NCBI RefSeq assembly: GCF_031180975.1
Contig: NZ_JAPSLI010000006.1
Location: 1-64,000 of the forward strand
DNA: 64,000 nucleotides
Source: Microbacterium sp.
GTDB lineage: Bacteria > Actinomycetota > Actinomycetes > Actinomycetales > Microbacteriaceae
Reading direction: 5' to 3'
Positions 998 through 23,960 of this stretch are shown here, piece by piece; positions within the stretch are counted from its first letter, which is position 1, and the number at the start of each line of letters is the position of its first letter. A program made the position numbers and the translations under genes. The notes under the pieces are model-generated. The model had not been told where the DNA came from. It saw only the letters and a list, made by a program, of their open reading frames with translations, and ran no database searches.

Positions 998-1873
998 ATG
1001 AACACGAAGAAGTTGGTCATCACCGCAGTCACCGCCACACTCGCGTTGGGCATTACGGCGTGCGGCTCCAGCACCCCTGAAGAGCCCGCGTCGGCGAAGC
1101 CGGCGGGCAACGGCGGCGAATACGGCCTCCCCGCGGACGTCACGAAGTTCACCATCGGCACGTCCGTGGGGACGGCGCCTTACGAGTACTACGAAGCCGG
1201 CAGCAACGAGGTCGCCGGCTACGAACCGGACCTGCTCGCCGAAGTCGCCGACCGCCTGGGTGTCGAGATCGAATGGAACCCCACCGACTTCGGCGCAATG
1301 TTCTCCGCTCTTGAGGCCGGCCGCACCGACTTCATCGCGAACGGTCTCATCGATCGCAAGAGCCGACAGGCTGACTTCGACATGCTCGACTACATCAAGG
1401 ATGCCTCCGGGTTCCTCGGGCTGGAGGGCACCACGGCTCAGCTGAAGACGATGGAGGACGTCTGCGGTCATTCGCTCGCGGTCCCCTCCGGGACGACCTG
1501 GGAGGGATACTTCGACGAGCAGTCCAAGAAGTGCATCGAGAACGGCGACGAGAAGATCGAGATCGTGCTCGTCAAGGACCCGACCGCCGCCACCCTCGCC
1601 GTCACATCCAAGCGCGTCGAGTTCGCCGTGAACCAGCAGCCCCTGCTCGCCTTCGCCGCACAGCAGACCCAGGGTCTGGAGGTCGGCGATCTGACCTACC
1701 TCGAGGGCGTCGTCGCGATGGCCTTCCCGAAGGACAGCGACCTGCTGGAGCCGGTGCAGAAGGTGCTGGACGAGATGATCGCAGACGGCACCTATCTCGA
1801 AATCCTGGAGAAGTGGGGCATGGACGACCTCGCCGTCGAGAAGACGTCGGTGAACGCCGGGACCGCCGAGTAG
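998..1873 (+). CDS. Amino-acid-type ABC transporter substrate-binding lipoprotein (family 3)
   Basis: A 291-residue secreted lipoprotein. The N-terminus has the KK-plus-hydrophobic signal and lipobox ITAC, giving lipidated Cys22. The body follows the polar amino acid binding protein (SBP_bac_3) pattern: GTSVGTAPYEYYEAG, the GYEPDLLAEVADRLG helix, and the late pseudo-repeat PKDSDLLEPVQKVLDEM. The ATG at 998 is preceded by a purine-rich GGGAAGAGAAGATCAGG leader. It heads an operon with the permease (20 nt later) and ATPase. The ligand is probably a small zwitterion or amine, inferred from the family and from the catabolic genes downstream; the exact ligand cannot be read from sequence. Confidence 0.92.
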   Translation: MNTKKLVITAVTATLALGITACGSSTPEEPASAKPAGNGGEYGLPADVTKFTIGTSVGTAPYEYYEAGSNEVAGYEPDLLAEVADRLGVEIEWNPTDFGAMFSALEAGRTDFIANGLIDRKSRQADFDMLDYIKDASGFLGLEGTTAQLKTMEDVCGHSLAVPSGTTWEGYFDEQSKKCIENGDEKIEIVLVKDPTAATLAVTSKRVEFAVNQQPLLAFAAQQTQGLEVGDLTYLEGVVAMAFPKDSDLLEPVQKVLDEMIADGTYLEILEKWGMDDLAVEKTSVNAGTAE

Positions 1874-1892
1874 CCGGGAGGTGCCCGAGCAC

Positions 1893-2786
1893 ATGAGTGA
1901 TACACAACAGGTGGGAACGAGCGGGCCGGACACCGACCGATTCGGGATCGTCCTCGACGCGAAGCCAGTTCCGCGCCGACACTGGGGCCGCTGGGTCACG
2001 GCGATCCTGGCACTCGCGTTCTTCGCATGGATCACCCTGATCCTTGCCGGTAGCCAGATCCGGTGGGAGCAGATCCCCGCCTACGTCTTCTCCTCATCGA
2101 TCCTGGACGGGCTCGTCGGCACGATCCAACTCACCGTCACGGTCATGCTCCTCGCGATCGTGCTCGGAGTGCTCGTGGCCGTGGCAAGGCAGTCCGGAAA
2201 CCCCGTCCTCGCAGCACTCGCCGGTTTCTACGTATGGATCTTCCGCGGCGTCCCGACGCTCGTGCAGCTTCTGCTGTGGTTCAACCTCGCGCTCATCATC
2301 CCCGAGATCCACCTCGGCCCGCTGTTCTCCGGCTCGACCAACACCCTGATGACGCCGTTCTTCGCAGCGCTGCTCGGGTTGGGCCTGTCGGAGTCGGCAT
2401 ACATGGCCGAGATCGTGCGCGGCGGGATGCTGTCGGTGCCACCAGGACAGGTCGAGGCAGCCCGTTCGATCGGGATGACGCCCGGGATGACGATGCGCCG
2501 CATCATCCTTCCGCAAGCGCTCCCCGTGATCGTCCCTCCCACCGGGAACGAGTTCATCGGAATGCTCAAGTACACGTCGCTCGCATTTGCGGTGTCGTAC
2601 ATGGACCTGCTGAGCCAGGCGCAGAAGATCTACACCTCCAACTTCGCCGTGATCGAGGTTCTGCTCAGCGCGACGGTCTGGTATCTGGTCCTCGTCAGCG
2701 TCTCGATGTTCCTGCAGCGGCAGCTGGAGCGTTCCCTGGCCCGCGGCCGCCGTCGACGGACGCGGCCGATCCGAAAGGCGGTCTGA
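1893..2786 (+). CDS. Amino-acid-type ABC transporter permease
   Basis: A 297-residue inner-membrane subunit of the His/Glu/Gln/Arg permease family. A cytoplasmic N-tail of about 30 residues precedes several membrane spans (around 35-57, 72-95, 105-130, 155-180, 255-280). The ABC-coupling EAA loop is EAARSIGMTPGMTMRRIILP, near residue 190. A GTG at 1881 is in frame, but ATG 1893 has GGGAGG (1877-1882) at proper spacing, so 1893 is chosen. It probably forms a homodimeric channel with the ATPase at 2790. Confidence 0.9.
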   Translation: MSDTQQVGTSGPDTDRFGIVLDAKPVPRRHWGRWVTAILALAFFAWITLILAGSQIRWEQIPAYVFSSSILDGLVGTIQLTVTVMLLAIVLGVLVAVARQSGNPVLAALAGFYVWIFRGVPTLVQLLLWFNLALIIPEIHLGPLFSGSTNTLMTPFFAALLGLGLSESAYMAEIVRGGMLSVPPGQVEAARSIGMTPGMTMRRIILPQALPVIVPPTGNEFIGMLKYTSLAFAVSYMDLLSQAQKIYTSNFAVIEVLLSATVWYLVLVSVSMFLQRQLERSLARGRRRRTRPIRKAV

Positions 2787-2789
2787 TCG

Positions 2790-3554
2790 ATGGGAAGCAT
2801 GGTCTACGCGCAAGGGGTGCACAAGAGCTTCGGTTCGCACCACGTGCTGAAGGGGCTCTCGCTCAAGGTGAGGCAGGGAGAGGTCGTGTGCATCCTCGGC
2901 GCATCCGGCTCCGGCAAGTCCACCTTCCTCCGCACGATCAATCATCTGGAGCGCATCGACTCGGGCCGGATCTTCGTCGAGGACGTGCTGATCGGGTACG
3001 AGGCACGCGGCGGACGACTCCATGAGATGCGCGAGCGCGACATCTGCCGTCAGCGCCAACGGATCGGGATGGTGTTCCAGCACTTCAACCTGTTCGCGCA
3101 CAAGACAGCTCTCGAGAACGTCATGGAGGGGCAGATCCAAGTGCTCGGTCGTAGCCCCCGCGAGGCGGAGCAGCGCGGCCGGAAGCTCCTCGACCGGGTG
3201 GGACTCGGCGACCACTGCGACCACTACCCGAAGCAGCTCTCCGGCGGGCAGCAGCAGCGCGTTGCGATCGCAAGGTCTTTGGCCATGGATCCGCAACTCA
3301 TGCTGTTCGATGAGCCCACCTCCGCTCTCGATCCCGAGCTCGTGGCTGATGTGCTGGCGGTCATGCGCGATCTCGCCGAGCAGGGCATGACGATGATCGT
3401 CGTCACGCACGAGATCGGGTTCGCGCGAGAGGTGGCCGACACCGTGGTGTTCATGGCCGACGGCGTGATCGTCGAGCAGGGCTCCCCCGCGGAAGTCATC
3501 GACAACCCACAGGAGGAGCGCACCAGGCAGTTCCTCGCGAACGTGCTGAAATGA
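2790..3554 (+). CDS. Amino-acid-type ABC transporter ATP-binding protein
   Basis: A 254-residue ATPase of the GlnQ/HisP type. It has Walker [10 protein letters not shown] at 37-45, Q-loop FQHFN, signature LSGGQQQR, Walker [14 protein letters not shown] and the switch-loop [14 protein letters not shown] GlnQ-like extra segment ([14 protein letters not shown]) sits between Walker A and the Q-loop, as in HisP/OccP-type transporters. It lies 3 nt after the permease and its stop overlaps the next start (ATGA). That coupling ties import directly to the acyl-CoA synthetase that follows. Confidence 0.93.
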
Positions 3555-5731
3555 ACGCAGGACAATCGGACACGGCCGTCATGGCGCCGAACGTGCTGGT
3601 GCCGTCGTCGATCCTGGTCGTGGGCTCCGGCTCCGCGTCGACCCGTGCCGGGACGACCCTCCGATCCCTGCGGCGGAACGCGTCTGCCGGCGGGGTCGCG
3701 CACATCGACACGGATTCCGGGCTGGACGCGGTCCGCGCAGCGCTCGCACGCCCGGCATCCCCTCACGTCGATTGCGTACTGGTGTACGACCTCAGTCCGC
3801 GAGAGATCGCAGGGCTGATTCCCGCGCTGTGCCGTCTCGGCGCCCGGACGCTCGTGCTCGGCGCGGGCGACACGGAAGGGCTGCCGGAGCTGATCGGAGC
3901 GGCACGTCGTACCGGCATCCGTGTGCTCGGGCCGGGCGCCTACGGCCCATTCACGGGCGACAGCGGACTTCTGATCAACCCCGTGCATGGCACCGAGCCG
4001 ACCGGTCTGGGGGTGTTCGCCCAGAGCGGCAACGTGGTCCTCGATGTGGTGGCCGCTCTCCGCCGGACGGGCGATCTTCTCCCCCGGTTCGCGTGGGGGC
4101 TCGGGCGCAGCAGCGACCTCGGTCTGGCGGAGGCCGTGGAAGCGGCGGCTGCGGATGACGCCTGCACGGCCATCGCCATTCACGCTGAAGGCTTCAACGA
4201 GGGCGGCAGGCTGTTGCGCGCGGTATCGGAGGCAGCCCGATCAAAGCCGGTTCTCCTTCTCCAGGGCGGCACGTCAGCCGCGGGCAGTGCTTCTGCGCTG
4301 TCCCACACAGGCAGCCTCAGCACCTCGCGGGCCATCGTGAGCGGTCTGTTCCGGCAGGCCGGGGCGCAGGTGGTCGAGCGGGTCGACGATCTCACCGTCC
4401 TCGGTGCCGCGCTGTCAACGCTGCGCGAGCCCCGTGCGGACGCCGTCGCCGTCGTCGCGGACGGCGGCGGTCAGGCGACGCTGATGATGGATGCACTCGC
4501 CGACCGCGACGTTCCAACGGCGTCGCTGTCCGCCTCCACGGTCGAGCGGGTGGCAAACCTCCTCGGCGCAGGGAGCCACGTCGCGAACCCGGTTGATGTC
4601 GGAGTGAGCCCCGTCGCGCGCCCGACCGTCGCCTTCGAGGTCGCAAGCGTCCTGCTGCGCGCAGCAGAGGTGGACTGCATCGTCGTGGTCGGAGTCGTGG
4701 GCGGCTATGCAGTGCACTTCGCGGCTCCGGAGCTCGAAGGCGAGGAGACGGCTGCCGCGGGGGCGATTGCCGACGAGGCGGCGCGTCTCGGAAAGACCCT
4801 GGTCTTCGTGTCCAGCTATTCGGGCGATCTGCCCCCGGCCTATCGCGCGCTGCGCCGCGCCGGCTTCCCCGTGGTGGATTCCATCGACGACGCCGCGACG
4901 ATCGTGAGCGCCGTGCGCGAACGGGCCGCGTTCCTGCGCACGGCGGACGCCCGGTCCCGTTTCATCAACGCGGCCGAGCCGAGCGATTCCGATTCCTCAG
5001 GGTCGGCGGTCGTTCTGGACGAGGCTGCGAGCCGCGGTAAGCTCGCCGGTTTGGGACTCCCCCTCGGTTCCTTCGATGTGGTCCGCACCGCGGACGAGGC
5101 GGTCGCGGCGATGGAGCCCGGGCGGGAGTACGTCATCAAGATCGTCTCGCCCGACATCTCCCACAAATCGGATGCCGGTGGGGTACGGCTTCGCGTCGCT
5201 CGGGAGAACGCTGTTGCCGAGTACCACCGGCTGCTGTCGGACGTGAGGAGGAACGAGCCCGACGCGCGCATAGACGGCGTCTCCGTGGCACCGATGGCAG
5301 AGCCCGGCGTCGAGATCCTCGTGGGCGCCTATCGCGATCCGCAGTTCGGCGCCTGCATCGCTGTCGGGTCCGGCGGCATCCTCGCCGAACTGATCCGGGA
5401 CACCGTGGTTCGGGCCGCGCCCGTGACATCACATGAAGCGGCCGAGATGCTGACGATGACGCGGAGCGCGCGACTGTTCTCGGGCTATCGTGGTGCGCCT
5501 GCCTCTGATCTGGACGGACTCGTCGAACTCATCGTGACGGTGAGCGAGATCGCGGCCGCTCACCCCGAGATCCTGGAGATCGACCTCAACCCCGTGATCG
5601 TTTCGCCCACGTCGCCGCAAGTCGCCGATGCACGGGTCGTCCTCAGGCAGGATGCCCCGGCACCCCACCCTGGCACCCACATGGCGGAGACGCCACCACA
5701 ACACACCACCACATCAAGGAGACCGACATGA
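3551..5731 (+). CDS. ADP-forming acyl-CoA synthetase (acetate-CoA ligase family), alpha-beta fusion
   Basis: A 726-residue fused NDP-forming acyl-CoA synthetase. The N-terminal CoA-binding Rossmann region (about 15-140) is followed by the succinyl-CoA-synthetase-like ligase region. This holds the phosphorylated histidine in ALSHTGSLS (His252). The C-terminal ATP-grasp half begins near residue 485 and has [19 protein letters not shown] from about 527 and EIDLNPVIV near 675. The reaction is acid + CoA + ATP to acyl-CoA + ADP + Pi. The N-terminal glycine motif is looser ([11 protein letters not shown]) than the usual GxSxxxG. The start overlaps the ATPase stop and the stop overlaps the ALDH start, so the three are translationally coupled. 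The acid substrate is unknown, probably the product of the neighbouring dehydrogenase. Confidence 0.88.
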
Positions 5732-7164
5732 CTGGCGCGATGATGACCGCTGAGACCCTGTTCGACGCCTGGCGTGTCGAGATCGGGACCGCCGATTCCT
5801 CGACCGTCCACAACCCCGCGACCGGCGAAGCCATCGCCGCCTACCGGAATGCGTCGCCCAGCGACGTCGATGACGTGGTCGCGGTCGCGAAGGACGCATT
5901 CGACAGTTGGGGACGGACGACTCCCTCGGAGCGTTCATCTCTCCTGCTGCGGCTCGCGGACCGCCTGGAAGAGACGGTGGCCGACTTCGCCGCCATCGAG
6001 AGCCGCAACACCGGCAAGCCGGCGTCGCACGCGGTGGCCGAGGTGGCGGGCAACATCGACTTCGTGCGCTTCATCGCGGGCGCCGCGCGGGTCTCCCACG
6101 GTCTGGGCGGCGGCGAGTACGTGCTCGGCAGGACGTCGGCCGTGCATCGCGAGCCGATCGGCGTGGTCGGCCTCATCACGCCGTGGAACTACCCCCTGAT
6201 GGAAGCGATCTGGAAGGTGATCCCCGCTCTGGCCGCCGGAAACACCGTCGTCGTCAAGCCCTCCGAACTCACGCCGGAGACGACCATCAGACTCGTCGAG
6301 CTTGCCCAGGAGACCCTACCGGCAGGCGTGCTCAACCTCATCCTCGGCGACGGCAGGGCCGGCGCAGCGCTCGTCGAGCATCCGGACGTGCGGATGGTCT
6401 CGCTCACCGGCGACACGTCCACCGGAAGGAAGGTCGCCGCGGCAGGAGCAGCCTCGCTCACGCGAATCCACCTCGAGCTCGGTGGCAAGGCAGCCGTGAT
6501 GGTGTTCGCGGATGCTCCTATCACCGAAGTGGCGGAGAGGCTCGCCCCCGGCGCGTACGTCAACGCCGGCCAGAACTGCACTGCGCCTTGCCGCATCATC
6601 GTCGAAGCCTCGGCCTATGACGAGTTCGTGGCGGCGTACTGCGCCGCCGTCGCGTCGCTCAGTGCGGGTGCCCCCGAGGAGGACGCGGACCTGGGTCCGC
6701 TGATCTCACAGCGCCAGTTGGACCGGGTGAGCGGGTTCGTCGAGCGGGCCCGCGCTGCGGGCGCGACGGTTCCAGTCGGGGGAGCCCGGATCGACCGCCC
6801 CGGGTACTTCTACGCACCCACAGTGGTGCTGGACCCCGCGCAGGACTCCGAGATCATTCAGAACGAGGTCTTCGGGCCGGTGGTCACGATTCAGGCGGCC
6901 GAATCCGAAGCAGAGATGCTCGAGATGGCCAACGGAGTTCAGTACGGTCTCGCGGCGAGCGTGTGGACGTCGAGCCTCGATCGGAGCCTGCGTCTCTCCC
7001 GAGCACTGACTTTCGGCACGGTCTGGGTGAACGAGCACGACGTGCTCGCCAACGAGATGCCGTTCGGCGGATTCGGTCAGTCGGGATACGGCAAGGAGCT
7101 GTCGGCTCACGCCATCGACGAGTACTCGCAGTTCAAGCACGTGATGATGGCCGCCTCGCTCTGA
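5728..7164 (+). CDS. NAD(P)-dependent aldehyde dehydrogenase (betaine/aminobutyraldehyde type)
   Basis: A 478-residue ALDH. It has catalytic Cys284 in NAGQNCTAPCR, general-base Glu250 in LELGGK, the nucleotide motif LTGDTSTGRKV, TPWNYPL for the oxyanion Asn, and EVFGPVVT near the end. It oxidises an aldehyde to a carboxylic acid. The NAGQNCTAPCR pattern and overall length fit betaine-aldehyde or gamma-aminobutyraldehyde dehydrogenases, which would suit an amino-aldehyde intermediate; that is inference. It starts inside the stop of the acyl-CoA synthetase, so its acid product may be passed to CoA activation. Confidence 0.9.
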   Translation: MTGAMMTAETLFDAWRVEIGTADSSTVHNPATGEAIAAYRNASPSDVDDVVAVAKDAFDSWGRTTPSERSSLLLRLADRLEETVADFAAIESRNTGKPASHAVAEVAGNIDFVRFIAGAARVSHGLGGGEYVLGRTSAVHREPIGVVGLITPWNYPLMEAIWKVIPALAAGNTVVVKPSELTPETTIRLVELAQETLPAGVLNLILGDGRAGAALVEHPDVRMVSLTGDTSTGRKVAAAGAASLTRIHLELGGKAAVMVFADAPITEVAERLAPGAYVNAGQNCTAPCRIIVEASAYDEFVAAYCAAVASLSAGAPEEDADLGPLISQRQLDRVSGFVERARAAGATVPVGGARIDRPGYFYAPTVVLDPAQDSEIIQNEVFGPVVTIQAAESEAEMLEMANGVQYGLAASVWTSSLDRSLRLSRALTFGTVWVNEHDVLANEMPFGGFGQSGYGKELSAHAIDEYSQFKHVMMAASL

Positions 7165-7227: not shown

Positions 7228-8331
7228 ATGAAAGCCGCACTGGCCACCGAGATCGGGCCCGAGGCTCGCTTCGACATCGTCGACCTCGAGATCGACGCTC
7301 CGAAGGGACGCGAAGTCCTCCTCGACGTCCGGGCCTCCGGACTGTGTCACAGCGACCTGCACGCCATCCGCAACGACTGGGGTTTCCCCGTCCCTGCGGT
7401 CTTCGGCCACGAGATCGCCGGCGTCGTGCTGGAGGTCGGTCCAGCTGTGACCGATGTCAAGGTGGGTGACCACGTGGTCGCGTGCGTCGTCCCGTACTGC
7501 GGAAGCTGCCGGAACTGCCTTGCCGGACGCAGCGTCGACTGCCTCCACCCGGATTACATCGACCGGCGCGCCGGTGAGCCGCCGCGCATCACGATGAACG
7601 GTGAACCGATCGTGCAGCAGTTCGCGGTCGGCGGCTTCGCCGACAAGGCACTCGTCAACGAGAACATCCTCGCGGTCATCGACAAGGAGGTGCCGTTTCC
7701 GCAGGCATGCGTGATCGGTTGCGCCGTCGCGACCGGAGCCGGCGCAGTCATCAATGCAGCACACGTGCGGGTCGGCGACAGCGTCGCGGTGTTCGGCACC
7801 GGAGGTGTCGGACTGAACGGCATCAGCGGTGCCGTCCTGGCCGGGGCCGGCCGCATCATCGCAGTGGACATCGACGATGCCAAGCTCGACGTCGCCCGCA
7901 GATTCGGCGCCACGCACACGGTGAACTCCTCACAGGAGGATGCCGTCGCCGCCATCCGCGAGCTCACGGGAGGCGGAGTCGACCACTCATTCGAGTTCAT
8001 CGGTCTTCAGGTGACGCAGCGCCAGGCCTACGAATGCCTCGGCAAGGGTGGCTCCGCGTACGTCGTCGGCATGGCGAAGTCCGGCTCGACGGTCGTGCTC
8101 GACACGTCGGTCCCGTTCCTCAGCGCCGGCAAGGCCGTGCGCGGGGTGTCCATGGGCTCGACCAACCTCAAGCGCGACATCCCGATGTACGCCGACTTCT
8201 ACCTGCAGGGGCGGATGAACCTGGACGACCTGGTCTCCCAGGAGATCGCCTTGAGCGAGATCAACGACGCGTACGACCAGCTGAGCCGGGGCGGAATCAT
8301 CCGTTCCGTGATCACTGACTGGACCCGATGA
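7228..8331 (+). CDS. Zinc-dependent alcohol dehydrogenase, MDR family (class III-like)
   Basis: A 367-residue medium-chain dehydrogenase. Catalytic zinc ligands are Cys40, His61-Glu62 and Cys165 (GCAVATGAG). The structural zinc lobe has Cys91, Cys94, Cys97 and Cys105. The NAD site is GTGGVG (about 190) with an acidic AVDIDD after the second strand. The ATG has AAGGAGAACC directly upstream. It is 63 nt after the ALDH and could supply its aldehyde. The sequence resembles the long-chain, class III / NDMA-dependent group of actinobacteria; which cofactor is used cannot be decided here. Confidence 0.9.
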   Translation: MKAALATEIGPEARFDIVDLEIDAPKGREVLLDVRASGLCHSDLHAIRNDWGFPVPAVFGHEIAGVVLEVGPAVTDVKVGDHVVACVVPYCGSCRNCLAGRSVDCLHPDYIDRRAGEPPRITMNGEPIVQQFAVGGFADKALVNENILAVIDKEVPFPQACVIGCAVATGAGAVINAAHVRVGDSVAVFGTGGVGLNGISGAVLAGAGRIIAVDIDDAKLDVARRFGATHTVNSSQEDAVAAIRELTGGGVDHSFEFIGLQVTQRQAYECLGKGGSAYVVGMAKSGSTVVLDTSVPFLSAGKAVRGVSMGSTNLKRDIPMYADFYLQGRMNLDDLVSQEIALSEINDAYDQLSRGGIIRSVITDWTR

Positions 8332-8491: not shown

Positions 8492-9706
8492 GTGACCAAA
8501 TCGATCATCGTCGTCGGCGGTGGACTGGTCGGCACATCGACCGCGTACCACGCGGCGAAGGCCGGCCTCGACGTGACGCTCATCGAGCAGAAGCACGTCG
8601 CGCACGGCGCGTCCGGTCGCAATCCCGGTTTCGTCTGGCTGCACTGCCGCAACCCCGGATGGGCGCTGGACATCTCCCTCAAGGGTGTGGAACTGCTGCG
8701 GCAGCTCCGCCAGGACCTCCCTGTGCCGTTCGAGTTCCGGCAGGAGGGTGGGCTCATCTACTTCACCCAGGAATCTCAGCGGAAGGTCATGGAGGAGTTC
8801 GTCGAGCTGCGCAGTCGCCACGGGCTCGATATGGATCTGATCGACACCCACGCCGTGAAGGAGAAGGTGCCGGCGCTGCGCGACGACGTTCTGGGAGCCA
8901 GCTTCTGCGCCAACGACGCCCAGATCAAGACTCCGACGGTCGTCGCCGCTCTCGCGGCCGGTGCGGTCGCCCATGGCGCGCGCATCCACGAGCGTCTGCC
9001 CGTCACCAAGCTGCTCCGCTCCGGCGACGCCGTCGTCGGCGTGCGCACCCCGGATGGGGACTTCTACGCGGATGTCGTCGTGGTGGCCACCGGAGCGTGG
9101 ACGGAGCACTTCATGCGCGACGCGCTGGGGCTCGAAGTGCGTGTCGGGCGCGAACGGCTCCAGGTGATGGCGACCGAGAAGTTGCCGCGCAGCGTGGGCC
9201 CGATCACCTACGGCCCCGAGACGGCCAAGGTGTACACGCTCTTCCGTGACCTGCCGTCCTGGAATGAGGAGGCGTTCACGTCCGACATCGAGCGTGAACT
9301 CGGCCACACCATGTTGACGCTTGCCGCACAGCGCGCGGACGGCGAGATCCTGCTGGGCTGCCCGATCGACTATCCGGGCCACGTCGACCTGCGCCCTACG
9401 CTCGACGGACTCGGAGCCATCTCGAAGACAATCGCGCGCGACTTCCCCAGCCTCGCAGACGCCGCCATCGACCGCGTGTGGGCGGGTGTGCTGCCCTTCA
9501 CGTCGGACATGGTGCCCATTGTGGACTTCGCCTCGCCGGGGCTGTTCCTCGCGGCCGGGCACGTCTTCGGCAACTCCTCTGGTCCCATGACCGGCAAGGT
9601 CGTGGCGCAGATGCTCCTCGGCGAGGAGACCGACGTCGACATGCATGAGACTCGCTGGGATCGGCCGCTGGACCCCATCGTCCCGGGCAAGACTGTGGTG
9701 TGGTGA
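8492..9706 (+). CDS. FAD-dependent amine/amino-acid oxidoreductase (DAO family)
   Basis: A 404-residue flavoprotein of the D-amino-acid oxidase / sarcosine oxidase fold. It has an N-terminal dinucleotide motif VVGGGLVGTSTAYHAAKAG (from residue 7), Glu ending strand 2 in LIEQKHVAHGASGRN, and the C-terminal FAD motif LFLAAGHVFGNSSGPMTGK. It would oxidise a C-N bond to an imine. The start is GTG 8492, with AAGGAGG at 8475-8481; an upstream in-frame start at 8444 lacks a ribosome site. It has its own promoter region and ends at a strong hairpin. A second paralogue sits at 11789-12937. Confidence 0.88.
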   Translation: MTKSIIVVGGGLVGTSTAYHAAKAGLDVTLIEQKHVAHGASGRNPGFVWLHCRNPGWALDISLKGVELLRQLRQDLPVPFEFRQEGGLIYFTQESQRKVMEEFVELRSRHGLDMDLIDTHAVKEKVPALRDDVLGASFCANDAQIKTPTVVAALAAGAVAHGARIHERLPVTKLLRSGDAVVGVRTPDGDFYADVVVVATGAWTEHFMRDALGLEVRVGRERLQVMATEKLPRSVGPITYGPETAKVYTLFRDLPSWNEEAFTSDIERELGHTMLTLAAQRADGEILLGCPIDYPGHVDLRPTLDGLGAISKTIARDFPSLADAAIDRVWAGVLPFTSDMVPIVDFASPGLFLAAGHVFGNSSGPMTGKVVAQMLLGEETDVDMHETRWDRPLDPIVPGKTVVW

Positions 9707-9722: not shown

Positions 9723-9765
9723 ACACGAAGAAGAGGGGCGGATCATCCGCCCCTCTTCTTCGTGT
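9723..9765. terminator. Bidirectional terminator hairpin
   Basis: A perfect 19-bp inverted repeat (ACACGAAGAAGAGGGGCGG with its complement) around an ATCAT loop lies between the convergent oxidase (ends 9706) and deacetylase (ends 9785) genes. The arms are A/T-rich at the outer ends, so it can work in both directions. Confidence 0.9.
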
Positions 9766-16398: not shown

Positions 16399-17439
16399 TC
16401 AGGCGAGCGAGGAGAGAATCTCGTCTGCCTGCGCCGCCATCCCGCGGACGATGTCGCCGGCGGGCGTGAGCTCGTACACCGAACTGATCCCCTGGCCGGC
16501 CGGCATCATGCCCCACTCGAGGTCACCGTCCTGATACCCGGTCTCCACCCGCATACCCGCCACCGCGTACTGTCCGGGGAAGGCCGCCGGCTGCGTGGCT
16601 GACTCCTCCCACTGCGAGGTCCAGCGATTGCGGAAGGCACGCAGCGGCTTGCCCGTGTACGCCCGGGTCAGCGTGAGTTCCCTGCTTTCGCCCTGTACCA
16701 CGCGCTGCTTGAAGGCCTCGTGCCCGAACGCCTCGGGCGACGCGATGAAGCGGGTCCCCACCCAGACGCCGTCGGCGCCGAGCGCTCGCGCAGCGGCCAG
16801 ACCTCGACCGTCAACGATTCCACCGGCCGCGAGCACGGGCAGGCTCACACGGTCGACGACCGCGGGGATCAGGGGGAGGGTGCCGGTGTATCCGGTGTGG
16901 CCGCCGCCTTCGGTGCCCTGTGCGATGAGCAGGTCCACGCCCGCCTGCTCTGCTGCGATCGCCCGCCCGGTCGAGCCGACGAGTGCGGCCACCTTGATTC
17001 CACGCCGGTGGCATTCCTCGATGAAGTCGCCCGGCGCCGCGAAGGTCAGGACGACGAGGGCGGGGGCGGCGTCCAGCACGACCTCGACCTGGCCGCGAAC
17101 GGCCCCGGGCGTGAGCAGGGGCTCGACTCCTGCCATCTTTCCGCGGTCAGTGGGGTCGAGCTGAGCCCACAGCTCCCGCACCGGACGCCACTGGTCGTCG
17201 TCATCGCTCGTGAGCGAATCCGGGAGCAGGAGGTTGACGGCGAATGGCTTGCTGGTCGTCGCCCTGATGCGCTCGATCTCGGCTCGCAGCGCCTCCGGGA
17301 GGAAGCTCACTCCGCCCAGGCAGCCCATCCCGCCCGCCTCGGACACGGCCGCGACGAGGGGCGCTTGCGCCACTCTGGCCATGCCCGCGGAGAAGATCGG
17401 GTGCTCGATTCCGAACATCTCGGTGGCCCTGGTCTTCAT
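16399..17439 (-). CDS. Nitronate monooxygenase / 2-nitropropane dioxygenase-like FMN protein
   Basis: A 346-residue TIM-barrel FMN enzyme of the NMO/NPD family. It has IEHPIFSAGMARVAQAPL at the N-terminus, AQGTEGGGHTG (the conserved glycine-rich loop with the His of the NMO signature), and LPVLAAGGIVDGRGLAAARALGADGVWVGTRF for phosphate binding. Its role would be flavin-dependent oxidation of a nitronate or a related carbanion; many homologues lack a known substrate. ATG 17439 overlaps the thioesterase stop (ATGA). It ends 26 nt from the convergent PucR gene. Confidence 0.87.
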   Translation of the reverse strand: MKTRATEMFGIEHPIFSAGMARVAQAPLVAAVSEAGGMGCLGGVSFLPEALRAEIERIRATTSKPFAVNLLLPDSLTSDDDDQWRPVRELWAQLDPTDRGKMAGVEPLLTPGAVRGQVEVVLDAAPALVVLTFAAPGDFIEECHRRGIKVAALVGSTGRAIAAEQAGVDLLIAQGTEGGGHTGYTGTLPLIPAVVDRVSLPVLAAGGIVDGRGLAAARALGADGVWVGTRFIASPEAFGHEAFKQRVVQGESRELTLTRAYTGKPLRAFRNRWTSQWEESATQPAAFPGQYAVAGMRVETGYQDGDLEWGMMPAGQGISSVYELTPAGDIVRGMAAQADEILSSLA

Positions 17440-17855
17440 GATGACTCTCCTTGGTGCTGGGCGATCGCCACGAGGCGCTCGCGAATCGGTTGCGGGATGG
17501 GCGCCGAGCGCCCTACCCCTGATGTCACGTTGACGTAGGTCGTGGTGATGCTGGCCAGGTCGTGTTCGCCGCGCCGGACGACGAAGTGGAGCACCGTGCT
17601 GGTGGTGCCCACGTGGGTGCAGGTCACCGTCACGACCAGATCGTCCCCCAGGCGCGCAGGCGCCCGGAAACGCAGGTCGATGGCCACGACGGCGGGGTCG
17701 AAGCCGAGGGCGATCAATTGCGGGTACGTCCACCCGAACCCGTCGAAGAACTCGGTCATCGCGGCATCCGCCAGTTCCAGGTACCGACCGTTGAAGACGA
17801 TGCCCTGGTGGTCCACCTCATAGGAGCGCACTCGATGCGCGTAAGTGAACGTCAT
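17436..17855 (-). CDS. Acyl-CoA thioesterase (hotdog, 4-hydroxybenzoyl-CoA thioesterase/YbgC type)
   Basis: A 139-residue single hotdog domain. YEVDHQGIVFNGRYLELAD is the typical catalytic Asp-x-x-Gly helix start of 4HBT/YbgC thioesterases (usual family length 130-150). It would hydrolyse an acyl-CoA in the pathway or release CoA from dead-end esters. Both ends overlap neighbours by 4 nt (nitrilase-fold gene upstream, NMO downstream), showing strict co-translation. Confidence 0.87.
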   Translation of the reverse strand: MTFTYAHRVRSYEVDHQGIVFNGRYLELADAAMTEFFDGFGWTYPQLIALGFDPAVVAIDLRFRAPARLGDDLVVTVTCTHVGTTSTVLHFVVRRGEHDLASITTTYVNVTSGVGRSAPIPQPIRERLVAIAQHQGESS

Positions 17856-18751
17856 GCCTGCTCACCCAGGCGTCGGTAGAGGTCCTCGCGAACGTTCGCG
17901 AGCCCGGGTGGTTCCGGATTCCGCCGAGAGGCGCGCAGCAGGTCGAAGTCGAGTCGCGCGTGGAGCAGATCCCCCTCGCGCGTGTCAGTCACTTGCGCCC
18001 ACACCCCGTCGTTCCGCCCGAAGGTGCGGTCGAGAGGCACGGCGATGCGCGCGTTCCCGGTGCCGTGAATCGCCCCGTCGACGGGGTAGCCCATCGACGC
18101 CACGAGGGGCGACACGACGACGTACATCTGATTCTCCATCGCACGCGCATGCGCGCCGATTCGCACCCGCTCCGCACCGCGAGTGTTCCAGGTGAGAGAT
18201 GGACAGAAGATGACCTCGACATCGCGCCCGGCGAGGAGTCTGGGCACCTCGGGGAACTCGATGTCCGCGCAGATCTGCACCGCGGCCCTCACGCCGTCGA
18301 CCTCGAAGACGGCGACGGCCTCCCCGGGCTCGACCCCCATCTTCTGCTCGGCCGGGGTGAGATGGAGCTTGTCCTGCTGCACCAGGCGGCCATCCGGGAA
18401 CGCGACGTAACAGGTGTTCCGGACGGCACCGCCGTCCGTCGCGCGCAGATGACTGCCGCCGACAACGATCAGATCCAGCGCACGGGCGATCTCGCGGTAG
18501 AGGCCGATGACCTCATCCGTGAAGCGCGGGAAATGCTCGCGGTACACGCGATCCAGATCAGCGACGCGGAGCTCCTCCCTGTCCGGGCGGGCCGCGAGCA
18601 GCGAGGTGGTCACGAGTTCCGGCAACACCAGCACACGGCTGCCCGCTGTGGATGCCGCATGGGCCGTCTCCGTCACTCGACGGGCGAACGTGGCGAAGTC
18701 GTCGTCCGCGGCAAGCGCGAACTGAGCCGAAGTGATCTCCAGCGCAGTCAT
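17852..18751 (-). CDS. Carbon-nitrogen hydrolase (nitrilase superfamily amidase)
   Basis: A 299-residue nitrilase-fold hydrolase with the complete Glu-Lys-Cys triad: Glu45 (VLPELVT), Lys128 (QQDKLHLTP) and Cys161 (VQICADIEFPE). It cleaves an amide or nitrile C-N bond and releases ammonia or an amine. The position in the acyl-CoA operon suggests removal of amide nitrogen from the substrate or from an omega-amide. It overlaps both neighbouring genes by ATGA. Confidence 0.9.
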   Translation of the reverse strand: MTALEITSAQFALAADDDFATFARRVTETAHAASTAGSRVLVLPELVTTSLLAARPDREELRVADLDRVYREHFPRFTDEVIGLYREIARALDLIVVGGSHLRATDGGAVRNTCYVAFPDGRLVQQDKLHLTPAEQKMGVEPGEAVAVFEVDGVRAAVQICADIEFPEVPRLLAGRDVEVIFCPSLTWNTRGAERVRIGAHARAMENQMYVVVSPLVASMGYPVDGAIHGTGNARIAVPLDRTFGRNDGVWAQVTDTREGDLLHARLDFDLLRASRRNPEPPGLANVREDLYRRLGEQA

Positions 18752-20220
18752 GACCGCACCGCCAGCTGTTCTTCGACGCGACGCCGGTCGATCTTGCCGG
18801 TTCGCTCATTCACCGGGAACGAGTCGACGACCACGACCTCTTCCGGCACCTTGTAACCGGCCAGTTCGTCGCGACACCGAGCAAGGACGGCCTCCGCATC
18901 GGGGTGCACGCCGTCCGCCCCTGTCACGACGACGACGATGCGCTGACCGAACCGCTCATCAGGCAGGCCGAGCGCCACGGCATCCGCGACATCGGGCTCC
19001 TGACGCACAACGCGCTCGATCTCGGCGGGTGCCACGTTCGCGCCACCGCGGATGATCATGCCGGAAAGCCGTCCGAGCACGCGGATCAATCCGTCCGCTC
19101 GGACCTCCACCAGATCGCCCGTCCGGTACCAGCCGTCCGTGAGCACCCGCGCGGTCGTCTCCGGATCACCCTGATACTCGGTGAAGAGCGCGGGCCCGCG
19201 GGCATAGGCCTCGCCGATCCCCGGAGATTCGATCCGCTGACCGGTGTCGGGGTCTCTGAGCTGGAGATCGGCCCCGGGTACGACCCGCCCGGCGCATCCT
19301 TCGACGGGGACAGGATCGATCACGGGGTCGTAGGTGACGACGGGAAAGCACTCGGAGGCCGCGTACACGTCGTGAACCGGCACTCCGGTGAGGGCTCGCC
19401 ACCGATCGAACACGCCCTCGTTGCGCGGTTCTCCCCCGGAGATGCACAACCGGATCCGGTGCTCGTCGAGGCCGCCCCTGGTTTCGATCAGATCGACGAG
19501 TTTCGCGAAGATGGTCGTGACGCCCGCCACGAAGGTGACGCGGTCCGCGCTGATCGCCTCGAGGACCGCCTCGGGCTTGGACCGCCGGACCGAGCGGACG
19601 CGACCGCCGGAGAGCAGGGCGGCCATCGAGGTCGTGACGAGTCCGAACGCCCAGGCCATGGGCAGGACGACCAGTGTCGTGTCCCCCGGCCCCAGGCGCC
19701 AGACGTCGCCGTAGGCCGCAGCGCCGGCGAGCACGCTCGCGTGACTGTGCACGACCGCTTTCGGGCGCTGCGTCGACCCCGAGGTGTAGCACACCAGGGC
19801 TGCCGCGCCGCCGTCGGGTTCCGGCCCCGCGAAGGGCCCGGTCGGGACGACGTGACGCGTGAGGGAACGCGTCTGGGTTCCCTCCGGGATGCGCTCCGCG
19901 AGTTCTTCGTCCGCAAAGGTGAGCTGCACGCCGGAATGCTCGAGTGCGTAGGCGATCTCCGCCGCGGGCGAAGACGGGTACACCGTGACGAGGGTCGCCC
20001 CGGCCCGCCACACGCCGAACGCATGGGCGAGGAATCGTGCCGAGTTGCTCGCGATCACGGCGACGTTCTGCGCGCCGGCGGCGCGCACCTCGTGGGCGAC
20101 GGCGTCCGCCAGTGCGTCCAGGTCGGCGTTCGTCATGTCGCCGTGCTCATCTATCACGGCGACGCCGGCCGGATCCGCCCCCGCGCGCTGCCGCAGATGT
20201 TCGGAGAAGGTGCCAGGCAT
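18748..20220 (-). CDS. AMP-forming acyl-CoA synthetase/ligase
   Basis: A 490-residue ANL-superfamily ligase. It has P-loop YTSGSTQRPKAVVH (145-158), AASE region YAASECFPVV, YRTGDLVEV hinge region, and the catalytic C-terminal Lys in NERTGKIDRR. The reaction is acid + ATP + CoA to acyl-CoA + AMP + PPi. It is the second CoA ligase of the island besides the ADP-forming one at 3551, so the pathway seems to need two activation steps or two acids. Start ATG 20218-20220 follows GAGGACCTC, 7 nt after the MaoC stop. Confidence 0.9.
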   Translation of the reverse strand: MPGTFSEHLRQRAGADPAGVAVIDEHGDMTNADLDALADAVAHEVRAAGAQNVAVIASNSARFLAHAFGVWRAGATLVTVYPSSPAAEIAYALEHSGVQLTFADEELAERIPEGTQTRSLTRHVVPTGPFAGPEPDGGAAALVCYTSGSTQRPKAVVHSHASVLAGAAAYGDVWRLGPGDTTLVVLPMAWAFGLVTTSMAALLSGGRVRSVRRSKPEAVLEAISADRVTFVAGVTTIFAKLVDLIETRGGLDEHRIRLCISGGEPRNEGVFDRWRALTGVPVHDVYAASECFPVVTYDPVIDPVPVEGCAGRVVPGADLQLRDPDTGQRIESPGIGEAYARGPALFTEYQGDPETTARVLTDGWYRTGDLVEVRADGLIRVLGRLSGMIIRGGANVAPAEIERVVRQEPDVADAVALGLPDERFGQRIVVVVTGADGVHPDAEAVLARCRDELAGYKVPEEVVVVDSFPVNERTGKIDRRRVEEQLAVRS

Positions 20221-20227
20221 GAGGTCC

Positions 20228-20683
20228 TCAGCTCGAGCGCTTGAACATGACGATCCACTGACCGTCCTGGCACACCGTGCCGTTCTGATTCTCGACGCGC
20301 ACATCGAACGTCACAATCCCACGATCGGGCTTGGAGGACGACGGCTTGACCTCGGCGACGCTCTGCTCGACGTGAATGGTGTCGCCCACCTTCACGGGCG
20401 CCTTCAGGTTCCAGGTCATCCCGAGGAATGCGATCGCGGTGCCTTCCTTGAGGCCGAGGCGCGACTCCAGTCCGGTCGCGATTGCGAACACGCCGGGACC
20501 GTGGAAGATGCGGCCGCCGAACGGTGTCGTCTTGGCGAACTCCTCATCCGTGTGCAGGGGGTTGAAGTCTCCGGAGAGACCGGCGAAGAGCGTGAGGTCC
20601 GCCTCGGTGATGGTGCGCGCCGGGCTGCGCCAATGCTGACCCACCTCGAAGTCGTCGAAGAAGAGGGCGGTTCCTTGGGGCAT
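20228..20683 (-). CDS. MaoC-family dehydratase (enoyl-CoA hydratase 2-like)
   Basis: A 151-residue hotdog hydratase. It has FFDDFEVGQHWRSPARTITEAD and the hydratase-2 motif GDFNPLHTDEEFA with catalytic Asp and His. It would hydrate the enoyl-CoA made by the acyl-CoA dehydrogenase. ATG 20683 follows GAGAGGAACACTC. It is the first gene of the minus operon running down to 16399, and is divergent from the permease at 20935 across a 251-bp gap. Confidence 0.88.
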   Translation of the reverse strand: MPQGTALFFDDFEVGQHWRSPARTITEADLTLFAGLSGDFNPLHTDEEFAKTTPFGGRIFHGPGVFAIATGLESRLGLKEGTAIAFLGMTWNLKAPVKVGDTIHVEQSVAEVKPSSSKPDRGIVTFDVRVENQNGTVCQDGQWIVMFKRSS

Positions 20684-20808: not shown

Positions 20809-20842
20809 CCAATGGAACGGGGCTGAGCCTTCCCCATACGCT
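20809..20842 (+). promoter_or_regulatory. Promoter box shared with the oxidase gene at 8492
   Basis: CCAATGG (20809-20815) and TACGCT (20837-20842, within CCCATACGCTCG) repeat the block found at 8382-8414 with one nt difference in spacing. It lies about 90 nt before the permease start, in the 251-bp divergent gap, which contains no gene. A second A/T-rich patch (TTTCCTATACAG, 20775-20786) may serve the divergent MaoC operon. Confidence 0.5.
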
Positions 20843-20934
20843 CGCACTGCAACGGCGCAGCTGTTCGTACGCATCCCGATGTCAGCAGAGGCACACGAGG
20901 CACAGCGGCCGGTCCCCTCGATAGGAGCGACACC

Positions 20935-22428
20935 ATGAACACACCCGACACCACCGCCGGCCCCATCGACCTCTCCGCTTCGCCTGCCACGAACGCCGTC
21001 GTCACGACGGACACCGGACGACAACTGGTCGGGCGCCTGCACACCCACGACCTGGTCCTGGCAGCGCTCGCGCTCGCTGGCCCTCTCGCGGCGACCACCG
21101 GTTACACGGCCCTTCTTCTCGGATTCGGCAGTGGACTCGGCACCTCGTGGACGTTCCTCGTCGTGATGGTGGTGCTGCTCTTCTTCGCGATGGCCTATGG
21201 CGCGATGACGCGCAGCGTCGACCGGCCCGGCGCGTTCTACTCGTACATCACGGCCGGGCTGGGCAAGCATGTCGGGCTGGGTTCCAGCTTTCTCATCCTC
21301 GCCTCGTACATCACCATCGGCGTCGGCTTCTACGGTTTCGCGGGACTCTCGCTGGCCGAGTACGTGGTCCGGCTGGGTGGACCGGAACTGCCGTGGTGGC
21401 TCTTCTCGCTCGCGTACTGGGTCGTCGTCGGCACGCTCGCGTACTTCCGCGTCGACCTGTCCGCCAAGGTTCTCGGCGTGCTCCTTCTGCTGGAGGTGGT
21501 CGTCGTCACGATCTTCGACATCGTCTCGATCGCCGGCGGCACTCGGGACCACGGTCTGGCGCTGGCACCGCTGAACCCTGGCACATTCTTCGACGGCAAC
21601 GTCGGGTTCGCACTCGCCTTTGCGGTCGCGCTCTTCACCGGCTTCGAGGCGACCGCGATCTACCGGGAGGAGACGGTCCGGCCGAACAAGACCATCCCGC
21701 GCGCCGCCATCTTCGTCGTGCTCATCATCGGCCTGTTCTACGCGTTCACGGCGTGGGCGTTCATCAACGGTCTCGGCGAGGAGAACGCTGTGGCGCTGTC
21801 CGCGGAGAGCCCGGCCGGCGTGTTCTTCGTCGTTGCGACGCAGTACGGCGGTCCGATCCTGTCCGACATCGCGTCGGTCCTTCTCATCACCAGCGTCTTC
21901 GCCGCCCACCTCGCGATCCAGAACGTGTCGACCCGTTACGTGTATTCGCTCGGCGTCGACGGCATCCTCCCCCGTGCGCTGGGCGTTCCGCACCCTCGCC
22001 ACGGGTCCCCCGCACGGGCGTCTGTGACCGTCAGCCTCACCTACTTGATCTTCACCGGTGCGCTGATCCTGTTCGGCCTCACCGCGCTCGAGATCTACGC
22101 CTGGTTCGCCGGGCTCGCGTCATTCACGCTGATCCTCGCGATGGTGCTGGTAAGCCTGAGCGCGATCGTCTATTACGCGTTCAGCGGCCGTGGCAGGACC
22201 GAGCCGCAGAGCTTCAGCACCCGCATCGCTCCGACCCTCGCGTTCCTGGGCCTCGGCACCATCGCGGTGCTCGTGCAGCTCAACTTCGGCGCGATCACCG
22301 GCGGCTCCCCGCTGCTGAACATCGTGATGATCGTGTGCTCCTACGTCACCTTCGCCGTCGGGATCATCGTCGCCGAGGTGCTGCGCCGACGCGCACCCCA
22401 CGTCTTCAACCGAATCGGGCGTCAGTGA
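20935..22428 (+). CDS. APC-superfamily amino acid/amine permease
   Basis: A 497-residue integral membrane transporter with about 12 hydrophobic spans. The N-terminal GYTALLLGFGSGLGTSW segment and the FxGFEATAIYREETVRPNKTIPRA loop after span 6 are typical of APC amino-acid permeases. The ATG follows TAGGAGCGACACC. With the ABC importer at 998 it is the second uptake route of the island. It is probably co-transcribed with the GMC oxidoreductase 29 nt downstream, suggesting that its substrate is an amino alcohol or amine oxidised by that enzyme. Confidence 0.9.
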   Translation: MNTPDTTAGPIDLSASPATNAVVTTDTGRQLVGRLHTHDLVLAALALAGPLAATTGYTALLLGFGSGLGTSWTFLVVMVVLLFFAMAYGAMTRSVDRPGAFYSYITAGLGKHVGLGSSFLILASYITIGVGFYGFAGLSLAEYVVRLGGPELPWWLFSLAYWVVVGTLAYFRVDLSAKVLGVLLLLEVVVVTIFDIVSIAGGTRDHGLALAPLNPGTFFDGNVGFALAFAVALFTGFEATAIYREETVRPNKTIPRAAIFVVLIIGLFYAFTAWAFINGLGEENAVALSAESPAGVFFVVATQYGGPILSDIASVLLITSVFAAHLAIQNVSTRYVYSLGVDGILPRALGVPHPRHGSPARASVTVSLTYLIFTGALILFGLTALEIYAWFAGLASFTLILAMVLVSLSAIVYYAFSGRGRTEPQSFSTRIAPTLAFLGLGTIAVLVQLNFGAITGGSPLLNIVMIVCSYVTFAVGIIVAEVLRRRAPHVFNRIGRQ

Positions 22429-22457
22429 CGCGCCAGGGCCCAGTGAGAGGAAATCCC

Positions 22458-23960
22458 TTGTCCAAGACGGAGTACGACTTCATCATCGTCGGAGGCGGAA
22501 GCGCCGGTGCCACGCTGGCTCGCAAGCTCGCGGACAGCACCCCCGCCTCCATCCTCCTCATCGAGGGAGGCCCCGCCTACGAGGACGACCCCAAGGTGAT
22601 GTATTTGAAGGAGTCGCTGGGGCTGGTCGGCGACCCGACGTACGACTACGACTATCCCCTCGTCCCGCAGGAGCGCGGCAACTCGCTGCTGCGGATCAGC
22701 CGGGCGAAGATGCTGGGCGGCTGCAGCGCGCACAACGACGCGTGGGCGCTGCGCGCACCCGACGCAGACATGGACCGGTGGGAGGCCGCGGGCGCGGACG
22801 GCTGGAACGCGGCGACGACGGGACCCTACTTCGAGCAGGTGCTGACGGACATGAAGGTCCACCCGGTCACCCGGACCGCGGAGCTGTCCCAGGCCTGGAT
22901 CGCCGCGGCCGCCGAACGAGGGTGGCCGGAGATCGACAACACTCGGGGTGAGTACGGGCAGGGCATCTCGTGGGTGTCCCTGAACGAGCACGAGGGACTG
23001 CGCTATTCGACCGCGATGGCCTACCTGTTCCCGCTGTCGGACCTGGCGCCGAACCTCACGGTGCAGCTGGAAACACTCGTGAGCCGTGTGCTGTTCGACG
23101 GCACCCGCGCGATCGGTGTGGAGACCGATCGCGGTTCGTTCTACGCGTCCAAGGAGATCATCCTCAGCGCCGGCTCGATCGACACACCGAAGATCCTGAT
23201 GCTCTCGGGAGTGGGGCCGGCCGACCACCTGGCCGAGGTGGGCATCGACGTGCTCATCGACTCTCCAGGCGTCGGATCGAATCTCCAGGACCACATCGAG
23301 ACGCCGGTGACATGGGAGGCGACCCGCCCGGCGGGCGAGAGCATCAACGGCCTCGACCTCGGCATGTACGCGTCGCTCGGGCGCAGCGACGAGGACTTCG
23401 ACACCCAGATCACGATCGGGCATTTCAACTACTGGCTCGAGACGGAGCCGTTCGACGAGCTCGAGCACACCGAGCTCGCCTTCACCTTCGCCCCCAACGT
23501 CGCCCGGCCGTCGTCGCGAGGCGTCGTGCGCCTCGCATCCTCGGACTGGCGGGACAAGCCGCTGGTCGACCCCCGGTACTTCACTGATGAGGCGAACGAG
23601 GACGAGGCGAAGCTCATCGCCGGAATCAAGCTGGCACGCGAGTTCGCTCAGACCGAGGCGCTCCGCGGGTGGATCGTCCGCGAGATCGCTCCTGGCCCGA
23701 GTGTTCAGACCGACGAAGAGCTGGGTGCGTACGCACGGCGCTACTCGAACACCGTCTACCACCCCATGTGCACGGCGAAGATGGGGAGTGACGACGACCC
23801 CATGGCCGTCGTTGATGGTCGCCTGCGAGTGCGAGGAACTGAGGGTCTTCGCGTCGTCGACGGTTCGGTGATGCCCGAAATCGTGCGGGTGAACCCGAAC
23901 ATCACCATCGTGATGATCGGCGCCCGCGCAGCCGACCTGATCGCGGAGGATCACGCGTAA
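22458..23960 (+). CDS. GMC-family FAD oxidoreductase (choline-dehydrogenase-like)
   Basis: A 500-residue glucose-methanol-choline oxidoreductase. It has the FAD motif [13 protein letters not shown] at 9-21, GMC signature 1 ([12 protein letters not shown]), signature 2 ([18 protein letters not shown]), the catalytic His in [10 protein letters not shown] and the partner Asn in [10 protein letters not shown]. It oxidises a primary alcohol to an aldehyde. TTG 22458 is preferred because GAGAGG (22445-22450) is well spaced; GTG 22443 in frame lacks one. The usual Gly-Thr after the catalytic His is Met-Cys here, so the substrate may not be choline. Confidence 0.9.

Follow-up and report, generated by a model that had tools for sequence, protein, structure and literature searches.

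Background

One described counterpart of the genes analysed here belongs to nicotinate breakdown in Aspergillus nidulans, where, as the hxn study reports, dehydrogenase, imidase and amidase steps follow one another (PMC9304392). The same source states that the imidase, HxnM, opens a cyclic imide, that its structure is closest to HpPgdA (PDB 3qbu), and that it is 64% identical to a cyclic imide hydrolase homologue of P. putida (PMC9304392). HpPgdA itself was reportedly inactive on the sugars tried and was judged to be a small-molecule binder (PMC3084791). A second reference is Ccl of Hydrogenobacter thermophilus (6hxp), a protein of the citrate-synthase (CS) fold that carries the histidine of an AHGG motif together with an NVDG motif. 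In this paper, we analyse a 23-kb island (positions 998 to 23,960) of Microbacterium sp. (GCF_031180975.1), in which relatives of both kinds of protein are encoded side by side with enzymes of CoA metabolism. The island lies in the window, i.e. the whole 64,000-nucleotide stretch analysed, which is the first 64 kb of the 243-kb contig NZ_JAPSLI010000006.1 (C12).

A preliminary description of the window had read the island as a catabolic unit for a single nitrogen compound, with 20 genes of named families arranged in two plus-strand sets and two minus-strand operons around a single PucR regulator gene. The inventory and arrangement were confirmed by open reading frame (ORF) analysis, codon-position GC content and Pfam/NCBIfam scans. 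The pathway claim, on the other hand, stands for part of the genes only: the two minus operons, the PucR gene and one adjoining oxidase gene belong together, while most of the other genes lack such support. New here is the link between a catalytically altered clade of CS-fold proteins and an imidase-like hydrolase, CE4.

Results

A conserved core of 11 genes

The core consists of the two minus-strand operons and the PucR gene between them, in the order MaoC-AMPlig-NIT-TE-NMO / PucR / LYASE-SDR-DAO2-ACAD-CE4. The first operon encodes an R-type enoyl-CoA hydratase-like protein (MaoC, 20228..20683; PF01575), an AMP-forming acyl-CoA ligase (AMPlig, 18748..20220, with an alternative start at 20304; PF00501 and PF13193), a nitrilase-fold C-N hydrolase (NIT, 17852..18751; PF00795), a 4HBT thioesterase (TE, 17436..17855; PF03061, PF13279) and a flavoprotein of the nitronate monooxygenase/FabK family (NMO, 16399..17439; PF03060, 237 bits). 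The second encodes a citryl-CoA-lyase-like CS-fold protein (LYASE, 13748..14551), a short-chain dehydrogenase (SDR, 12987..13766; PF13561), a DAO-family oxidase resembling glycine/sarcosine oxidases (DAO2, 11789..12937; PF01266, 219.9 bits; top PDB match 7cyx, a glycine oxidase), an acyl-CoA dehydrogenase (ACAD, 10653..11792; PF00441, PF02770, PF02771) and a PuuE/HpPgdA-type hydrolase (CE4, 9785..10627), whose predicted substrate is a small cyclic amide or imide. The PucR-type regulator gene (14702..16372; HTH_30, GGDEF_2; PF13556, PF17853) is on the plus strand.

Relatives of the island were collected with a profile of 28 close lyases, which found 34 loci in a one-genome-per-species collection, 33 of them used; a 26% match in Planctomyces (L067) and a locus equated with L036 because their contigs are of equal length (L116) were dropped from the core counts. 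Together with three rhizobial plasmid loci and one further actinobacterial locus, the latter among 20 stretches hand-picked from search matches, these make up a core set of 37 loci (725 kb), five of which are shorter than 15 kb. As the earlier background loci were short (104 kb vs 674 kb), 10 lyase loci with flanks of similar size (214 kb) served as the control.

All 11 core genes occur in the same order and orientation in Arthrobacter sp. M4 (NZ_JAIWYX010000013.1, L048). The identities are 78% (MaoC), 49% (AMPlig), 51% (NIT), 46% (TE) and 67% (NMO) in one operon, 38% for PucR, and 53% (LYASE), 64% (SDR), 42% (DAO2), 56% (ACAD) and 67% (CE4) in the other. The likeness extends to DAO1 (64%) on one side of the core and to the type of importer on the other side, where an amino-acid ABC importer stands with RidA; the Arthrobacter locus differs in having a racemase and RidA, and in showing no match to ADPlig, ALDH, ADH, the APC permease or the GMC oxidoreductase within 20 kb. 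Eight to ten of the 11 core families, in changed order, are found at L061, L062, L049, L035, L036, L041 and L058, and the core recurs partially across Actinomycetota and Pseudomonadota. Judged by conserved neighbourhood, the test named in the preliminary description, the minus operons and PucR form one unit, and a single nitrogen-compound pathway is supported for this core; the operons are also separable, as L044 (see below) illustrates.

At a threshold of E 1e-10, the core families most often found at the 37 loci are SDR (28), CE4 (26), DAO-type oxidases (25-26), MaoC (25), AMPlig (22) and NMO (20), with NIT and PucR (14 each) and TE and ACAD (9 each) being rarer. The NMO proteins of nine actinobacterial relatives are 65-69% identical to that of the island, and MaoC reaches 78% in relatives. 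That the recurrence of island genes exceeds chance is a sound conclusion: among 20 control ORFs from 28-64 kb of the window, 18 match at none of 35 core loci and one at a single locus (39% identity), while the remaining one, the family of which was not scanned, has matches at 12 of the 35, all at 33% identity or less. Furthermore, the co-occurrence of the genes at 13748 (LYASE), 9785 (CE4) and 17852 (NIT), which had been suggested as a check, is borne out as an association, though not as a constant one. CE4 is found at 26/37 core loci vs none of the 10 control lyase loci (21/28 vs 0/10 with near-copies merged, Fisher p 4e-5), NIT at 14/37 vs 0/10, and MaoC at 25/37 vs 1/10.

One plus-strand gene is tied to the core, i.e. 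DAO1 (8492..9706), which encodes a DAO-family FAD oxidase (PF01266). Among the best 120 of 434 DAO1 matches and of 424 lyase matches, at least 13 contigs of at least 9 kb, the island's own included, carry both, while chance gave one match in all over 100 size shifts; identical size in bases was taken to stand for the same contig, and one shared length, 1,956 bases, was not counted. Five of these 13 contigs measure between 243 kb and 9.4 Mb, so that neighbourhood is shown only by the eight under 65 kb. Two metagenome contigs, of 64,012 and 23,378 bases, carry lyase relatives of 71-72% and DAO1 relatives of 80-85% identity. Because of synteny, recurrence and this sharing of contigs, we conclude that DAO1 forms a unit with PucR and the two minus operons. 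The one-pathway reading thus has its best support for the core genes and DAO1, 12 of the 20 in all, whereas for most of the other genes it lacks support. The preliminary description had also spoken of two FAD amine oxidases; FAD oxidases they are, but of the DAO/glycine-oxidase type and not of the MAO type.

Genes outside the core

The first plus-strand set opens with an importer, made up of a family-3 amino-acid-type ABC solute-binding protein (SBP, 998..1873; PF00497, 93.8 bits), an amino-acid ABC permease (PERM, 1881..2786; PF00528) and a polar-amino-acid ABC ATPase (2790..3554; PF00005; top NCBIfam model TcyN/EhuA, under the cut-off). It continues with an ADP-forming acyl-CoA ligase of 726 aa (ADPlig, 3551..5731; PF13607 and PF13549), an aminobutyraldehyde-dehydrogenase-like protein (ALDH, 5728..7164; PF00171; NF010000 at 603.7 bits, cut-off 615) and a zinc alcohol dehydrogenase of the class III/NDMA type (ADH, 7228..8331; PF08240 and PF00107; TIGR03989 under the cut-off), and ends with DAO1. 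The second plus-strand set consists of an APC permease (20935..22428; PF00324/PF13520) and a GMC oxidoreductase (22458..23960; PF00732 and PF05199).

The full set of 20 genes is not what recurs. At the same threshold, ADPlig and SBP match at none of the 37 loci, ADH at one (29% identity) and the GMC oxidoreductase at five (none reaching 40%); the ATPase is found at 13, PERM at 10, ALDH at nine and the APC permease at six. ADPlig, ADH and the GMC oxidoreductase are thus either local additions or parts of a separate pathway. The figures for these three genes are what one would expect if two or more unrelated pathways adjoined each other here, namely the core, the alcohol/aldehyde/ADP-ligase set with its own importer, and the APC-GMC pair. 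However, DAO1, the last gene of the plus set, is linked to the core, ALDH (54-59% identical at the three loci L043, L058 and L118) and the APC permease also recur near it, and strain variation is frequent in peripheral genes, so that we rate a chance adjacency of unrelated pathways as rather unlikely.

A CS-fold protein with changed catalytic positions

LYASE has the CS fold, as had been proposed, in its short form, and matches the NCBIfam citryl-CoA lyase model NF004869 with 253.4 bits (cut-off 212). By analogy with H274 and D375 of citrate synthase, we take the His of AHGG and the Asp of NxDG to be the catalytic residues of this fold. Both are present in H. thermophilus Ccl, whereas in the LYASE of the window the His is replaced by Thr, and the second motif reads NDVG. 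The same holds throughout the core set, which has Thr, Ala or Ser at the His position (His at 0/37 loci) and N[DE][VIM]G in place of NxDG (37/37), the Asp being displaced. Among the matches listed, 117 of 120 homologues carry N[DE][VI]G and three fall outside the motif pattern; the NDVG-type lyases form one supported clade (100/98). The matching Asp of human ACLY is essential, and its exact role is debated (PMC10115795).

Since the catalytic positions are changed, the label of citryl-CoA lyase, a name that comes from annotation, is doubtful, and citryl-CoA cleavage by this protein is at best putative. If the name were taken at face value, LYASE would simply cleave citryl-CoA or citramalyl-CoA like any lyase of this kind, and the pathway would end in a citrate-like acid. 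Not only the loss of the His and the displacement of the Asp at all 37 core loci speak against this, but also the company of the annotated control relatives, since a CoA-transferase lies no more than 10 kb away in 6/6 of them and tricarboxylate or TRAP transport genes are nearby in 4/6; we consider it very improbable.

Other relatives annotated as citryl-CoA lyase also lack the catalytic His (L033, L144, L145, L147 and L150-L152), and four of the His-less relatives lack the Asp as well (NGAG, NVSG, NATG, NVSA), so that several active-site types go under one name. At a Pseudomonas locus (L064), the lyase, ATPase and NIT each match in two pieces, the frames being perhaps broken by sequencing errors or decay.

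CE4 and a probable C-N hydrolase partner

The closest solved relatives of CE4 are HpPgdA (3qbu, E 4.4e-59) and 3rxz, followed by the PuuE allantoinase, and the classical polysaccharide deacetylases rank further down, after Z has dropped from 28.3 to 21.4 or less. In structure alignments, CE4 is 34-38% identical to 3qbu, and its residues D18, D20, H91, H95 and H239 correspond to the zinc-site residues D12, D14, H86, H90 and H247 of HpPgdA; they are invariant in nine sequences, that of the window included. By sequence and structural comparison, CE4 falls into the subclass of small-molecule cyclic-imide/allantoin hydrolases, and imide or lactam hydrolysis is its predicted activity. Its likeness to HxnM and the P. 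putida imidase runs via 3qbu, its nearest solved relative, and it differs from these and from PuuE in sitting among CoA enzymes.

The second hydrolase, NIT, contains what we take to be the E-K-C triad, as read by eye from the sequence. Among 21 stretches that carry CE4 but no lyase, a NIT homologue directly adjoins CE4 in four (L119 and L120, of one genus, L084 and L085), an amidase lies within 8 kb in two more (L083 and L130), and neither is seen in 15; the CE4 gene of L083 is on the same plasmid as the lyase of L073, about 50 kb apart. A pairing of CE4 and NIT as imidase and half-amidase is thereby supported, without proof. As to the settings of two of these pairs, that of L084 (11027-12918, on an Agrobacterium plasmid) is near PucR/hydantoinase genes and that of L085 (5107-6834, on a Paenarthrobacter plasmid) is near an amine oxidase, with no lyase nearby in either case. 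A CE4 homologue of 52% identity is also found on two plasmid records labelled Salmonella enterica (H54, H55), an unexpected host and perhaps a case of mislabelling.

Compared with the hxn pathway, the island offers an SDR, CE4 and a C-N hydrolase for the three steps in series. It adds CoA ligases, ACAD, MaoC and the CS-fold protein, and its NIT is nitrilase-fold while HxnN is FAAH-like. No nicotinate hydroxylase or 6-hydroxynicotinate monooxygenase family member is among the 20 island genes, the rest of the genome and the sequence beyond the contig end not having been searched.

Since CE4 is also close to the PuuE allantoinase, the ring to be opened might instead be a hydantoin or other cyclic ureide, which would be converted to an amino acid by a racemase (in the relatives), a hydantoinase activity of CE4 and an N-carbamoyl hydrolase activity of NIT, with the CoA genes processing the side chain. 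A PucR regulator is at hand, the models of C-N hydrolases to which NIT shows a weak match include that of N-carbamoylputrescine amidase, and the Asp/Glu/hydantoin racemase family PF01177 (one member scanned) is found by clustering at 13/36 loci. But the excess of racemases over the controls is not significant when near-copies are merged (9/28 vs 0/10, p 0.08), the 20 island genes include none (four PF01177 genes are elsewhere in the genome), and CE4 matches HpPgdA at five zinc-site residues, whereas PuuE is described as non-metal-binding (PMC3084791). A ureide substrate is accordingly judged unlikely.

Other genes beside the core in relatives

RidA, likewise by clustering, is found at 13/36 loci, and electron transfer flavoprotein (ETF) genes recur near the core, accompanied by paired FAD flavoproteins in some relatives from Proteobacteria and in a single actinobacterial one; RidA and the paired flavoproteins/ETF fit imine/amine chemistry. 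At L032 (15526-19975), L073 (17504-21958), L045, L056 and L059, the ETF pair adjoins a 505-aa Pyr_redox_2 protein and a 390-aa DAO flavoprotein, which we take to be something like a two-subunit amine dehydrogenase, presumably akin to opine oxidase. Neither RidA, racemase, ETF nor GABA transaminase is among the 20 island genes; five RidA genes are present elsewhere in the window's genome.

On three rhizobial plasmids, a GABA transaminase and an SSADH gene adjoin the core. This would fit a route in which activation, desaturation and hydration would turn pyrrolidine-2-acetate-type alkaloid acids into a carbinolamine, from which the CS-fold enzyme would yield acetyl-CoA and 2-pyrrolidinone, the latter being hydrolysed to GABA by CE4/NIT. 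The nearness of ALDH to aminobutyraldehyde dehydrogenase, the RidA of relatives and the origin of several relatives as root or legume isolates, according to their source records, agree with it. The transaminase is nevertheless confined to 3/37 core loci, apart from a 28% match at one more (L053), a single lactam needs one C-N hydrolase while two are present, and no matching tropane or pyrrolidine catabolism was found in the open-access literature, as far as its accessible text extends; this route is therefore quite improbable.

Beside the core of Rothia santali (L061, 2294-4486) is a 730-aa flavoprotein of the OYE/FadH type, like the mycofactocin OYE_2 model but under the cut-off. A dehydrogenase of the tartrate/isopropylmalate type adjoins the core in four loci (L041, 18065-19186; L061, 18292-19383; L056; L058), that of L041 passing the NCBIfam tartrate dehydrogenase cut-off.

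Layout and accessory status of the island

The gene overlaps noted in the preliminary description are real, there being six of four bases each in the plus and minus sets (3551-3554, 5728-5731, 11789-11792, 17436-17439, 17852-17855 and 18748-18751). The probable starts differ from those of the longest ORFs for DAO1 (8492), CE4 (10627), ACAD (11792), PucR (14702), NMO (17439), AMPlig (20220 or 20304), MaoC (20683) and the GMC gene (22458). A perfect inverted repeat of 21 nt (9723..9765) separates the convergent genes DAO1 and CE4 and likely functions as a two-way terminator; scans for consensus promoters and terminators did no better than on shuffled sequences, and this repeat is absent from the terminator-scan list.

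The island is accessory, being present in 1 of 366 genomes of the genus and of lower GC content than elsewhere in the genome: 0.676 vs 0.700-0.711 in seven other stretches (six 19-kb genome stretches and the rest of the window). GC at third codon positions is also lower, 0.843 (16 ORFs) vs 0.884 (97 ORFs; p 0.0006), a rough comparison, as the ORF caller favours frames of high third-position GC. LYASE matches at E 1e-35 occur in three of the 366 Microbacterium genomes, i.e. the own one and two at 38% identity with NIDG, another lyase type. The window's genome alone matches LYASE at E 1e-40 among 396 genomes of the phylum, ADPlig at E 1e-100 among 396 of the order, and DAO1 at E 1e-100 among 299 of the family. 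A plasmid megablast with the whole island returned 83 records, none covering 80%, and the 20 matches listed are short ABC/ALDH pieces only. In the accessible text of open-access papers on this set of genes, on ecgonine, hygrine or tropane, on imidases and iprodione hydantoinase, and on strain NyZ413, no description of the cluster was found.

Because the island starts 998 bases from the contig end, genes to its left may be missing. Positions 13-645 hold a weak DUF222-like ORF, under the Pfam cut-off, and positions 674-811 three imperfect 39-base repeats. To the right of the island, at 26503-28686, opposed ORFs overlap. That on the minus strand encodes a GPI-type isomerase, whose domain is near 26565-27021, and that on the plus strand an FGGY kinase, whose domain runs from about 27199; in their full length, these ORFs are over-extended. 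Further right, at 58937-60037, the housekeeping protein RlmN is 95% identical to one of Microbacterium, all named entries among its matches being from this genus, which argues against an initial assignment to Brevibacterium.

Discussion

We tentatively favour the reading that the 11-gene core encodes one CoA-dependent pathway, in which a cyclic amine would be oxidised, a C-C bond cleaved and the ring opened hydrolytically; that the ring would be opened as an imide or lactam is put forward with the same reserve. Such a pathway would comprise amine or amide uptake, CoA activation and a beta-oxidation-like phase. The substrate could be taken up via the ABC and/or the APC transporter, and, as a strain-specific addition, GMC, ADH and ALDH might convert an alcohol side chain to the acid. 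AMPlig would then form the CoA thioester, DAO1/DAO2 and ACAD would introduce C=N and C=C bonds, and MaoC would add water. With its rebuilt active site, the CS-fold enzyme might release acetyl-CoA by a retro-aldol/Claisen-like cleavage, and SDR, perhaps with NMO, would turn the remaining ring into an imide or lactam. On the model of the HxnM imidase and HxnN amidase, CE4 would open this ring and NIT would subsequently remove the amide nitrogen, while TE could recycle CoA and PucR might sense a compound of the pathway. We infer the substrate and the order of reactions from the chemistry known for each family and from the likeness to hxn; as the substrate class, plant-derived cyclic amines are the favoured candidate. 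The mechanism is weakest at the CS-fold step, in the part assigned to NMO and in the choice of the ring that is opened.

Several observations weigh against this reading. The 34-kb contig L044 carries PucR and LYASE-SDR-DAO2-ACAD-CE4 with no MaoC operon within 18 kb. CE4 is missing at 11 and a NIT relative at 23 of the 37 core loci, five of which, as stated, are short. ACAD is no commoner than in the controls (9/37 vs 3/10) and reaches 40% identity at two loci only. SDR (24/37) and AMPlig (14/37) separate from the controls (0/10 each) only at the level of at least 40% identity; at E 1e-10 with near-copies merged, the differences are not significant (p 0.06 and 0.14). GABA transaminase, as noted, is rare among the relatives and absent from the island. 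In addition, with its catalytic residues lost, LYASE might catalyse something very different from C-C cleavage, or have no activity at all.

A bolder version of the proposed pathway, which we regard as possible though on the unlikely side, is that of a horizontally spread, undescribed route, in which an N[DE]VG, His-less CS-fold enzyme would free acetyl-CoA from an N-heterocyclic acyl-CoA, and an imidase-like hydrolase and a nitrilase-fold amidase would open the leftover imide or lactam. If true, this would extend the citrate-synthase fold, one of the most thoroughly studied in metabolism, to a new reaction, and would amount to a new and general way of entering nitrogen rings. Two misleading names would be corrected, and imide- and amide-opening enzymes would become available in a testable series. 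Genes labelled 'citryl-CoA lyase' and 'polysaccharide deacetylase' would then mark a shared way of dismantling nitrogen rings in scattered soil and root bacteria.

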